Below, in pieces: positions 12,663 through 21,449 of a DNA stretch of 25,117 bases. A program made the translations under genes and the position numbers. The DNA comes from a virus. The DNA lies in IMG/VR virus record IMGVR_UViG_3300013122_000021, positions 1 to 25,117 of that record; one strand, given 5' to 3'. The notes beneath the pieces are model-generated. The model searched no databases. It had not been told where the DNA came from and saw nothing but the letters and a program-made list of their open reading frames with translations. How positions within the stretch are numbered: the stretch's first letter is position 1; each line of letters starts with the position of its first letter.

Positions 12663-12700
12663 ACGCTAACCAGCGGCTCGCGAGCGCGTTACCGCCGTCA
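12663..12700 (-). promoter_or_regulatory. Repeated phage promoter element, copy 5 (leaderless type)
   Basis: TGACGGCGGTAAC (12688-12700, exact), 19 bp, TAGCGT (12663-12668). The TAG of the -10-like box is the stop codon of the upstream repeat protein. The predicted +1 is 12656, the A of the connector ATG. Confidence 0.77.
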
Positions 12701-14561
12701 CCGTGCGGGCGCGAAGGCGACCGGCGGTATGACGTGGGAGATTGTCGCCAGATGTAATTCGTGGCTCATATGGTTGACTTACCTGCCGGGATATCTGCGC
12801 GCCACGCGCTGTTCTAGCGAGCGGGGTCGGGGGACGCTCGCCCACCACCCCGCGCGCTTCGCCGGTCAGCGACAGCCCGCCTTCGATCACCGCCAGAATT
12901 ACCGTGCTGGCAGTGCCTTGGCCTTCAAACTCAATGTTGCCCGATGCCGATCCGATGACCGAGGTGTCAGCCTGCGCTGTTCCGTAGAGGTCGATCGATC
13001 CATTCGCCGTCCCGGTGACAGCAGCGGAAGCCACAGCCTGCCCGGTTAGACTTATATCCCCTTGCGCTGCCCCGGAGATGGCCGGAGAGCCGCTTGCCGT
13101 CCCCGTTAGTGCGATCGTGCCCGATGCGTTGACAATGGCCTCAGACACACCCTCCGAAGCCGTGCCGGTGATCTCCAATGTCCCGGCTGCATCGCCGCTG
13201 ATTGCGCTAGTCGCCGCACCGGTGCCTGCCAGGTCAATTCCGCCCGATGCATCCGCTGCGATCGCCGTGCTTGCCGATGCGATCCCTGACAGCACAAGGT
13301 TGCCGCTCGCGTCGGATGCGACCGCAACCGTCCCCGATGCTGTGCCGCCGAATGCCAGAGAGCCGGTTGCGTCTCCGCTAATCGACGTGCCGCCCGACGC
13401 CTGCCCGGTCAGATCAACCGAGCCGCTTGTATCTCCTGTTACCGTTGGCGAGCCCGTTGCGCTTCCGTCGAACCCTATCGTGCCGCTAGCATCGCCAGTG
13501 ATCGTGTCCACAGTGTCGCCGGTCGCCGTGCCGTCGAGTGCAATCGACCCGCTCGCGTCGGCGTTGATCGAACCCGTTGCCTCGCCTGATCCGCTTAGCG
13601 CGACCGAACCGGTAGCAGCGGCCTGCGTCGTTACCGTACCCGTTGACGATCCAGTCAGCGCTATCGAACCGCTGGCGGTGCCGATGACCTCGCCCGGCTC
13701 TCCACCGCCCCCGGCATCGTCATAGATCAGGACAATGCCGCCGGGAGCGCCGATGCCCGCGCTGGTTACATGGCCCGCGCCGCCGCCGCCGCCCCAGCCC
13801 CCACCGTTGCCACCGGGGCCGGCCCGTGAGCCGCCACCACCACCTCCCGGCCCCGCCGTTGCTGCGTCACTGGTTTGGGTCCAAATGTCGTATTGAGCGC
13901 CGTTGCCACCAGCAACGGTGTTGGCAGATGCGGCACCGGTGCCACCACCGCCGTTTGCCGCCTCGATAATCGCATTTGAAGCAGATAGCCCGCCCTGGCC
14001 ATCTCCTTCTGGGCCAGCACCGCCGCTGTAATTCGGGTATGTAAGCGTCGCCTGCAACCCCGCAGTCGATGATCCTCCATTGCAGCCACCGCCGCCACCA
14101 CCAAGGTTTCCGCTGGACGCGGTAGCCCCAAATCCCGCTCGCCCAACACCATCCGGGCCAGCAGCACCGCCGCCTCCACCGCCCCCAGCGCCGGTGCGAT
14201 CGCCACCCTTACCGCCGGAAAACTTGGTCGAGCCGACACTTGTCGTTGCCTGCCCACCCTGCCCCGCCGCAGTGGTCGTAGCGTTGGCACCGGCCTTAGC
14301 CAGAACTTCCGACGTTGACGAAAACCATGTGTCCTGCGCCGATCCGCCCGCGCCAATCTGGCACGAAACGGAGGTGCCAGGCGAAACGGTTACGGTTTTG
14401 AAGGCGTAGGCACCGCCGCCACCACCACGCTTCTGACCCGATGTAATTGATAGCGAGCCGCTACCGCCCGCGCCGACGCAATGAACATCAACCGACGAAA
14501 CGCCAGCCGGGACCGTCCAACTGGTCGTTCCGGCTTGCAGAAATACGATGATTGTCGCCAC
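12666..14561 (-). CDS. Glycine-rich and 20-residue-repeat virion protein, probable head fibre or decoration
   Basis: 631 residues from GTG 14561 (GGGAG seven bases upstream). Residues 1-30 start as a glycine-rich domain protein (FLQAGTTSWTVPAGVSSVDVHC). Residues about 30-285 have many Gly runs (GGGGGAGG-like), as in phage adhesins whose glycine segments pack as polyglycine helices. Residues 296-570 hold fourteen repeats of about 20 residues, ASGSIALTGTATG-like, suggesting a beta-solenoid or stacked beta rods. The last 60 residues are Arg/Pro-rich, unlike the rest. It lies between capsid and connector genes, so a head fibre or capsid-surface protein is more likely than a tail fibre. Function is inferred from composition and position. 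Confidence 0.8.
   Translation of the reverse strand: MATIIVFLQAGTTSWTVPAGVSSVDVHCVGAGGSGSLSITSGQKRGGGGGAYAFKTVTVSPGTSVSCQIGAGGSAQDTWFSSTSEVLAKAGANATTTAAGQGGQATTSVGSTKFSGGKGGDRTGAGGGGGGGAAGPDGVGRAGFGATASSGNLGGGGGGCNGGSSTAGLQATLTYPNYSGGAGPEGDGQGGLSASNAIIEAANGGGGTGAASANTVAGGNGAQYDIWTQTSDAATAGPGGGGGGSRAGPGGNGGGWGGGGGAGHVTSAGIGAPGGIVLIYDDAGGGGEPGEVIGTASGSIALTGSSTGTVTTQAAATGSVALSGSGEATGSINADASGSIALDGTATGDTVDTITGDASGTIGFDGSATGSPTVTGDTSGSVDLTGQASGGTSISGDATGSLAFGGTASGTVAVASDASGNLVLSGIASASTAIAADASGGIDLAGTGAATSAISGDAAGTLEITGTASEGVSEAIVNASGTIALTGTASGSPAISGAAQGDISLTGQAVASAAVTGTANGSIDLYGTAQADTSVIGSASGNIEFEGQGTASTVILAVIEGGLSLTGEARGVVGERPPTPLARTARGAQISRQVSQPYEPRITSGDNLPRHTAGRLRARTVTAVTRSRAAG
12852..13676 (-). 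repeat. Fourteen tandem 20-residue repeats (coding)
   Basis: Protein residues 296-570 repeat a unit of about 20 residues with consensus ASGxIxLxGxAxGxxxIxGD. DNA copies are diverged at third positions, so selection acts on the protein. Two units are slightly longer (21-22 residues). Confidence 0.85.
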
Positions 14562-18720: not shown

Positions 18721-19521
18721 CTAATCGAAAGTCACCACCGCCCGCGATCGGCATCCACAATACGGAAGCTGCCCCGGCCTGTCCTGTGGTGCGGTCGCGT
18801 CCGTGTATTCCCGCCCGTCGCGCGCTTGATGATCGGCGCGAGGATGGCGCTTGCGCGAGTGAAGCCAGACCCACGTATCAATCCCCGCCTCGCGCCGCCG
18901 TTCGTCCGCCAGCGAGTTGCTGATCTTCGATAGCTGATCCGCGGCGATCCGCTGCGACCGATCTCGCGCCATGCCCACGGCCTCGCGTATCTCACGCGCC
19001 ACGTCTCGCGCGGCCTTGCGCTGCGTCAGCCCGGCGAACACGCGATCGGCTATGCGCTTCCGTGTCTGGTCCGAAACGTCGCGGATCAAGTCGGTGTTCC
19101 AGCGCAGATACGCCTCGATCGTGTCGCGCATATCCTCCGGGCCAATCAGCGTTTGCAGATCCACGCCAGTCGCGGACAGCACGGCACCGCGCCACCGCCC
19201 TCTAACCCAACGCTCGGTATCGAGCGCCCAATCTCGCAATTCCGGGCGTAATTCCATGAACAGCCGTTGAAACTCGCTCTCGCCATCCTCCAGTTCGCGC
19301 TGGATATCGGCGGGGCTGTCGGTCGTCATTGCGGACAGGGCGCGCTCGTATTCCGTCATGATGCGGTCGATACGGCGCTGCCACAGGGCGACGACGCGGG
19401 CATAGGTGCGATGATACAGGTCCGTCGCCATTGTGGCGGGTGCGCTGATCTCGCGCAGGACAATGCGGTTGCGGCGGATGTTGCGCTGGCGGCGAGCTAG
19501 GGTGGCGAGCGAGTAACGCAT
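18721..19521 (-). CDS. Mu F-like minor head protein
   Basis: 266 residues from the ATG at 19521, which overlaps the portal stop (TGATG) and has GAGGAG five bases upstream. The C-terminal region from about residue 217 (WVWLHSRKRHPRADHQARDGRE, then the cysteines of LPYCGCRSR) is the characteristic motif of the Mu gpF / SPP1 gp7 head morphogenesis family. The remainder is helical and charged. The family enters the prohead with the portal and in some phages leaves with DNA. Position directly after the portal agrees. Confidence 0.9.
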   Translation of the reverse strand: MRYSLATLARRQRNIRRNRIVLREISAPATMATDLYHRTYARVVALWQRRIDRIMTEYERALSAMTTDSPADIQRELEDGESEFQRLFMELRPELRDWALDTERWVRGRWRGAVLSATGVDLQTLIGPEDMRDTIEAYLRWNTDLIRDVSDQTRKRIADRVFAGLTQRKAARDVAREIREAVGMARDRSQRIAADQLSKISNSLADERRREAGIDTWVWLHSRKRHPRADHQARDGREYTDATAPQDRPGQLPYCGCRSRAVVTFD

Positions 19522-21449
19522 CACCGCTCCTCGATTTTCGACTTCCAATCCAGATCGAGTGCCTCGAAAATTTCAGGCCCGAACCGCAGTTCGCCGTTGA
19601 ACGGAACAATCGCATCCAGATTGACACCCTCGGGCAAGGCGTAGCTGATCGTCACGTGCGGCGCGTATTCTGGCCAGTCATGCGAACCGCCTGCCTCTCG
19701 CATTTCGCGATGACGGTATTCCAGGTCAGGCGCGGCGAACCGCAAGACGACGGCATTCTCGCCAAGCTGTTCGATCACGCGCGGGCCACCGGGGCGCACG
19801 GTGAGGTGCCCCTGTTCGTCTTCTGCCCACGAACGCCCCATCTTCATGGGATCGACCGCAGCACGCGAATACAGGACGGTGACGTGCATATCGGTGGCGG
19901 GCAGCGTGGTATCGAAGCCGTTGGCTTTAGCCCAGGCGATCAGGTCATCTGCGTTCAGTAGCTTTCGCTGGACATAGAGCGGGCGCGGTGTCGCATCCGC
20001 CATCCACGATGCAGCATCATTCGCCGCACGCGCAAACGCCCGTCTTCCACCGGGCGCTCGCGACGTGGGAGATAGTAGTTGATCCCCTCCTTCCTGCTGT
20101 TGCTGGGTTAGAGCGCTGGGGTCGCCGCCGTCATCCTCTGGCATACCGCCAAAGCGCAGCGCCTTGGGGATTTCTGACAGCGCGCCGTCAAGTCCGGGCA
20201 TGTATTCCCGCTCGCTCATAAGGTTCTGGACGGCCTTGTTGAAAGCCACCTCAGGGATCGACCCGGTGTTTTGCAGCTTCTCAACCGCTTCCATCGTGGT
20301 CTTGAAAGTATCCGCCTCTTCCTTCTCGCTCGGCACATCGAGCGGGGCAAAGCGCCAGGTGACCTTGGCAGGTTCAGACACCCCCGCCGATCGGATCAGG
20401 AACGGGTCAAGTTGTTCGAGGCATGGGCGCGTTTCGAGGCGCTGCCCGGATGCCACGGCCTTATGCCAGTTGGCGGTGTCATGTTCGCCGGTGGCGTTCA
20501 TTCCCGCCGGTGACCGCCCCATAAGCCGCGTGAACGGAATATCTGCGACCGCGGCGACCCGCTGGTCGAAGGCGTCCATCATGGCCGGGATGCCGGCCCA
20601 CGTGATCTGATAGTCGTTGATCTTTTCGCCCGACTTGTCCGATCCGTCGCCCGCGTCATAGACCACGGCATTGAGCGTGCTTTCACCCTCAGCGATCAGG
20701 GCGATGCGGCTGTTCAAGCGAGTCTGCCCACCGTCCGTCGAAACCATGTTGCTGAGATCGGGAATCCCCACCCGCAACAGCTTGGCCTTCTTGACCAACG
20801 CCGCGAACCAGTCCTGCGCATGATCCGACCGCTGCACCTCATGAAACACGCGCAGCAGGCGGCTATCGCCCCAGAACGCATCCTCCATCGACACCGTGTG
20901 ACCGGCGGGGAGAGGGTCGCCACGAAAGCAGATGACACGCGACGGGTGGATGGCCTGTTGCCGTCCGTTCCCGCTGATCTGGAACATCGTCGGCTTGCCG
21001 TATTCGGGATGTGCGAGGTCGCTGATCCAGTCGCGCCCGGTTAGCTGCCAGCGCGACACGACATTGAGCGCGATGATACCGTCAGCGCGCACGGTTTCGG
21101 CGGCCAGAGGCGTGGCATGGTCGCCCGCGGTGATGACGATGATCGCACCGCCGCCAATACCGCGCAGGATTTCAGCCGCCTTCACCTTGGCGATCAGACC
21201 GAGACGGCGTTCCTCGTCCTCAAGCTTGCCAATCGCGTCGCTGTCCGCCTGCCAGTCGCGCCATTCGCGGACCCGATCCTCGGCGGGGATGGCGATGACC
21301 TTGCGGAGCATCCCGCTCGACATGTAGGCGGCGACCGCCAGTTGATGCGAGAAAGCACCCGGGATGCCCGTCGCCTGTGCGCGTCCGAACGGGTTGAGGG
21401 TGGAGACTGCGCCGATCGCGCTCCTCAGACTGTCAGTGATCCACGCCAT
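19521..21449 (-). CDS. Portal protein (DUF1073 type) with C-terminal Acb1-like 2H phosphoesterase domain
   Basis: 642 residues. Residues about 30-430 are a DUF1073-type portal, including GRSPAGMNATGEHDTANW at about 311-328. After a Gln/Gly/Arg-rich linker (about 440-485), residues 488-642 match the Acb1 family of 2H phosphoesterases. The two HxT motifs are MHVTVLYS (His522, Thr524) and PHVTISY (His598, Thr600), and the family's YVQRKLLNADDLIAWAK-type helix precedes them. Acb1 of phage T4 cleaves cyclic di- and trinucleotides and defeats CBASS immunity. Fusion would place about a dozen copies on each portal ring. ATG 21449 is one base after the predicted +1 of promoter copy 8 and lacks a Shine-Dalgarno site. 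Confidence 0.88.
   Translation of the reverse strand: MAWITDSLRSAIGAVSTLNPFGRAQATGIPGAFSHQLAVAAYMSSGMLRKVIAIPAEDRVREWRDWQADSDAIGKLEDEERRLGLIAKVKAAEILRGIGGGAIIVITAGDHATPLAAETVRADGIIALNVVSRWQLTGRDWISDLAHPEYGKPTMFQISGNGRQQAIHPSRVICFRGDPLPAGHTVSMEDAFWGDSRLLRVFHEVQRSDHAQDWFAALVKKAKLLRVGIPDLSNMVSTDGGQTRLNSRIALIAEGESTLNAVVYDAGDGSDKSGEKINDYQITWAGIPAMMDAFDQRVAAVADIPFTRLMGRSPAGMNATGEHDTANWHKAVASGQRLETRPCLEQLDPFLIRSAGVSEPAKVTWRFAPLDVPSEKEEADTFKTTMEAVEKLQNTGSIPEVAFNKAVQNLMSEREYMPGLDGALSEIPKALRFGGMPEDDGGDPSALTQQQQEGGDQLLSPTSRAPGGRRAFARAANDAASWMADATPRPLYVQRKLLNADDLIAWAKANGFDTTLPATDMHVTVLYSRAAVDPMKMGRSWAEDEQGHLTVRPGGPRVIEQLGENAVVLRFAAPDLEYRHREMREAGGSHDWPEYAPHVTISYALPEGVNLDAIVPFNGELRFGPEIFEALDLDWKSKIEER

Follow-up and report, generated by a model that had tools for sequence, protein, structure and literature searches.

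An exchangeable Acb1-type domain at the C-terminus of a phage portal protein

The portal gene of a virus recorded in IMG/VR encodes, behind its portal body, a C-terminal domain of the Acb1 type. Comparison with related phages indicates that this domain is an exchangeable cassette, with breakpoints at the domain edges, that relatives swap, replace or do without. The stretch analyzed here, which we call the window, is the IMG/VR virus record of 25,117 bases. We consider it fairly probable that its portal gene joins a normal DUF1073 portal to an exchangeable Acb1 cassette that is an active phosphodiesterase against CBASS-type signals, working late in infection in the cell that produces the phage. 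An active domain would tie the phage's counter-defence to an essential late protein, with the enzyme present from the onset of assembly.

The portal and its C-terminal domain

The fusion gene lies at 19521..21449 on the minus strand and is complete, with an ATG start and zero internal stops in a product of 642 residues. The preliminary description had read it as a complete DUF1073-type portal followed by a flexible linker and an Acb1-like domain with two HxT motifs 76 residues apart (His522 and His598), and each part of that reading was upheld. The portal body, residues 39-391 (20277..21335, minus strand), matches Phage_portal_3 (PF06381, formerly DUF1073) with a Pfam E-value of 8.4e-104 and covers positions 4-357 of the 357 in the profile, and PHROGs places most of the 642-residue protein in a portal family. 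A model of the portal body has the Pam3 portal (PDB 8hds) as its top structural match, with a Z of 26.0 and 7.0 Å over 396 residues. A terminase gene lies on one side of it and a MuF-like gene on the other, and genes for DUF2213, the major capsid protein and the tape measure follow. The MuF-like minor head protein gene (18721..19548, minus strand; Pfam Phage_Mu_F, E 3.6e-8) overlaps the end of the portal gene and forms the other flank of the cassette. With its full profile match, its portal fold and its terminase and MuF neighbours, the protein is a member of Phage_portal_3. Elsewhere in the window, 12666-14561 encodes a 631-residue glycine-rich protein with many ASGSIALTG-type repeats, whose Gly_rich_2 match is weak and below the cut-off. 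No close relative of the window was found among 50,697 phage records, and a PADLOC scan gave no match.

The portal body is followed by a linker, residues 434-479 (20013..20150, minus strand), that is predicted to be disordered, with pLDDT under 50. Comparison of portal tails places the cassette boundary at a RAAND motif within it (residues 474-478; 20016..20030, minus strand). An internal start at Met483, just ahead of the domain, would yield free Acb1; we rejected this candidate, as there is no Shine-Dalgarno-like sequence and homologues differ there.

The Acb1 domain itself comprises residues 490-637 (19539..19982, minus strand). It matches Pfam PF23474 (Acb1, anti-CBASS nuclease) with an E-value of 1.4e-39 and 135.5 bits against a cut-off of 27, over profile positions 2-143 of 144, and was also recovered by a search of the record itself. 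Translation and alignment agree on both HxT motifs: His522-Val523-Thr524 (19878..19886, minus strand) corresponds to H44/T46 of T4 Acb1, and His598-Val599-Thr600 (19650..19658, minus strand) to H113/T115. The catalytic histidines are kept in all fused homologues that cover the sites (46/46 and 45/45 in the alignment), and, given this conservation, the motif pair is by alignment far beyond chance. The ligand-contact and catalytic residues of T4 Acb1 have assigned roles (PMC9117128), and in our alignment the tetrad, Y12 (Y492), E141 (E629) and W147 (W635) are all kept. Glu629 to Trp635 (19545..19565, minus strand) thus span the equivalents of E141, which contacts adenine N6, and of the lid residue W147. 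The position of T4 F107 is a tryptophan (W592) and so aromatic, and that of W74 is Glu560, a glutamate in 42/46 fused proteins, in an uncertainly aligned stretch.

The preliminary description had proposed structure prediction as a check on the domain, and the outcome is a predicted 2H fold far closer to FBB1 Acb1 than to LigT. The isolated domain model (pLDDT 89.3, pTM 0.85) superposes on FBB1 Acb1 with 3'3'-cGAMP with a Z of 17.0 and 1.9 Å over 134 residues, on BCSR5 phosphodiesterase with a Z of 14.6 and 2.4 Å, and on E. coli LigT structures with a Z of about 10.5 and 3.6-3.8 Å. Sequence, predicted fold and ligand-contact residues together strongly support the Acb1-like assignment. Judged by a dN/dS of 0.06-0.15 in nine pairs, the domain is under purifying selection.

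Exchange, replacement and absence among relatives

The exchange is clearest where portal and domain disagree. Relatives L041 and L059 have portals that are 99% identical and Acb1 domains that are 42% identical, while L006 and L041 have portals that are 33% identical and Acb1 domains that are 96% identical. At the DNA level, L041 and L059 are 95.8% identical before the domain and 88.7% identical from the stop codon onward, with identity absent across the domain; for L006 and L041, the long match is limited to 526 bases around the domain. Similar exchange is seen in L014/L020 and in L049-L051/L055. The portal and domain trees conflict, and forced grouping was rejected both ways (AU p 1.3e-4 and 4.5e-6) in tests on quick trees with groups picked after the data had been inspected. 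Chimeric assembly is an unlikely cause of this pattern because several contigs from different samples agree.

The swaps on near-identical portals exchange the window's subtype of Acb1 for a second one. This second subtype forms one branch (L012, L013, L015, L019, L020, L055, L057, L059 and L074) and in the alignment has serine for T115 and no lid tryptophan. It is possible that differing substrates are the reason for the subtype swaps. The same portal with different cassettes provides natural matched pairs that bear on which immune signals select which domain.

Many relatives with portals 60-70% identical end near residue 480-500 and are without the Acb1 domain. The preliminary description had placed counter-defence within an essential virion protein. 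Its attachment to the portal stands, but the domain is not part of the portal's essentiality, because portals this similar are without it. Among 100 distinct complete portals, a sample biased because the first scan used a fused query, 53 carry Acb1, 41 are domain-free and six have another tail. Five of these six tails match the PBECR3 nuclease, two above the Pfam cut-off and three below it. One portal tail of 181 residues (L060:5571-6833) looks PBECR-type by eye and has no Pfam match, and a 912-residue portal (L046:3679-6414) carries Acb1 plus about 246 extra residues that also have no Pfam match.

The boundary motif recurs in portals with and without the domain. An AAND-type motif is present in the tails of 23/41 domain-free portals, starting 9-14 residues from the end in 22 of the 23, and in 32/53 fused portals, where it mostly directly precedes the Acb1 domain. 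About 1-2% of shuffled tails contain such a motif. On the other side of the cassette, the junction of the portal and MuF genes seems to serve as an insertion site. In the gap between these two genes, several domain-free relatives have ORFs that by eye resemble HNH-type homing endonucleases (L027:5380-6126, L053:6173-7063, L037:7445-8059 and L054:7277-8071).

Where else does the domain occur? Within the phage records, Synechococcus, Pseudomonas, Rhizobium and Sinorhizobium phages and Pam3 carry the nearest fused domains, and T4-like and Vibrio phages have standalone Acb1-type ones. The records of 19 relatives without the fused domain (32-52 kb, some of them perhaps fragments) yielded no standalone Acb1, and the same search was positive in 13/13 fused records, with one copy each. 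Roseobacter phage DSS3P8 encodes a standalone Acb1-type protein (L092:2992-3444) that is annotated as a prohead protease, a label that is evidently wrong. In Synechococcus phage Yong-M3-232, the portal-Acb1 fusion is interrupted by a repeated stretch (L088:158-2144), and it is intact in the near-identical Ssp-JY40. We considered this split portal as a natural unfused form, but it is more probably a sequence or assembly fault because the JY40 fusion is intact and Yong-M3 repeats part of itself.

These comparisons can be read more broadly. We give even chances to a reading in which the C-terminus of the DUF1073 portal is a docking site where cassettes for counter-defence or effector functions (either Acb1 subtype, PBECR3 nucleases or none) are exchanged by recombination between RAAND and the MuF gene. 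The portal would then serve as a carrier that ties immune evasion to virion assembly, and the subtypes with and without the lid tryptophan would differ in the signals that they destroy.

Proposed function and alternatives

What would such a domain do? Its sequence and modelled fold make counter-defence the most probable reading, and the domain very probably destroys bacterial alarm molecules. In the mechanism that we propose, the cassette is joined via a flexible linker to the portal's natural C-terminus and would act as a metal-independent phosphodiesterase. From its fold and residues, it would hydrolyze adenine-containing cyclic di- or trinucleotides from CBASS or systems like it. Its synthesis alongside the portal would come late in infection, at about the time when CBASS fires, and it would be active in the producing cell, both as part of free portal and inside growing proheads, on their inner face. 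Attachment to the portal would guarantee co-expression with virion assembly. In T4 infection, Acb1 becomes active at about 15 min, coincident with the late CBASS response, in a study that also assayed nine extra enzymes (PMC9117128). Cassette swaps would track shifts in the hosts' defence repertoire. Some observations weigh against this mechanism: the W74 position holds a glutamate in the window and in most fused proteins, in the uncertain stretch, and the second subtype has lost the lid tryptophan and has serine for T115. In addition, matches to SMODS (CBASS synthase-like) were over the cut-off in only 31 of 299 genomes from the family of Sphingomonas metalli (L079), although many are weak and the phage's host may be another.

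The domain might instead serve the next infection. Portals in general point their C-terminus into the capsid, an orientation that favors a virion-delivered effector: the linker would be cut in the prohead, and the freed domain would be packaged, ejected with the DNA and protect the phage in the next cell. The portal remains in the capsid after DNA ejection, and therefore delivery needs the linker cut, for which we found no evidence and no conserved cleavage site. Genomic context and architecture agree with an effector of the virion-injected polyvalent type. The PBECR3 nucleases that occupy the same portal slot are in keeping with delivery, which has been proposed for portal and MuF fusions (PMC5512222, PMC9503650). 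The Pam3 structure could also be taken to favor it, since the 8hds chain has 621 residues in sequence and 442 modelled, and our alignment to it stops at 436, as if the domain were flexible or removed. We infer that the Acb1 part of 8hds is unbuilt because our domain model recovers the distant LigT, yet 8hds is absent among the matches listed. However, an uncut, flexibly tethered domain accounts equally well for the missing density. We regard delivery into the next host as unlikely; of the two, work late in infection within the cell that makes the phage is the more likely.

Would the substrate be a CBASS signal at all? The fold is related to those of LigT, CPDase and Usb1-type enzymes, and the targets of the domain could be RNA ends, 2'-5' linked nucleotides or 2',3'-cyclic nucleotides, which would make it an RNA repair enzyme or an RNase. 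PHROG 755, which matches residues 491-637, is labelled RNA ligase, and the T4 57B (Acb1) record bears the same label. The window protein scored 18.7 bits against the 2'-5' RNA ligase superfamily of Pfam (PF13563), under the cut-off of 27. The earlier work on these fusions initially favored an RNase function or cleavage of 2'-5' oligoadenylate, but it also reports that this 2H type is never associated with RNA ligases (PMC5512222). The equivalent of W74 is not kept in the window, in the uncertain stretch of the alignment; in contrast, the adenine contact E141 and the lid residue W147 are kept, and the model fits Acb1 much better than LigT. An RNA substrate is thus quite improbable.

A structural role, in which the domain extends the portal for assembly or packaging and its catalytic residues are relics, is hardly credible. 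Its fusion partner is a structural protein, and C-terminal crown extensions exist in other portals, but portals 60-70% identical manage without it, an unrelated domain can replace it, a portal 99% identical to another can carry a version with 42% identity, and its catalytic histidines are never lost.

Relation to known systems

Portal and MuF proteins that carry fused 2H domains have been described and proposed to act against nucleotide-based immunity (PMC5512222, 2017; PMC9503650, 2022). The preliminary description had located the novelty in function and timing rather than in the pairing; the pairing is indeed known, but a function against nucleotide immunity had already been proposed in these two papers. 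In a literature search without most subscription papers, we found no earlier report of an Acb1 assignment with ligand-contact residues for portal-2H fusions, nor of precise cassette exchange. Portal annotation hides Acb1 enzymes: across the 299 genomes from the family of Sphingomonas metalli, nine Acb1 matches lie above the cut-off, and all are in portal-sized frames of 615-701 aa.

The window domain resembles Acb1 of T4 and FBB1 (PMC9117128; PDB 7t26, 7t27) in its 2H fold, HxT/HxT tetrad, adenine-contact glutamate and lid tryptophan, and in the aromatic side chains that occupy the Y12 and F107 positions. T4 Acb1, however, is a standalone small protein (gene 57B), whereas the window domain is fused to the portal and non-aromatic at the W74 position. 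In T4, the Acb1 gene (L095:353-811) adjoins ipI, an internal virion protein gene.

The portal of cyanophage Pam3 (PDB 8hds) is a full-length homologue, with the portal followed by an Acb1-type domain, and the gene order of TerL, portal and minor capsid protein is shared. The two Acb1 domains are 38.6% identical, and that of Pam3 is seemingly unmodelled in the structure. Pam3 is a myophage, whereas in the window a tape measure is encoded and a sheath was not seen. More broadly, the window protein belongs to the same architecture class as the polyvalent proteins in which a portal or MuF protein is joined to a 2H or PBECR domain, and for these the same role in counter-defence has been proposed (PMC5512222, PMC9503650). 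Those studies named a general 2H domain, whereas our analysis places it in the Acb1 family and describes its exchange with precise breakpoints.
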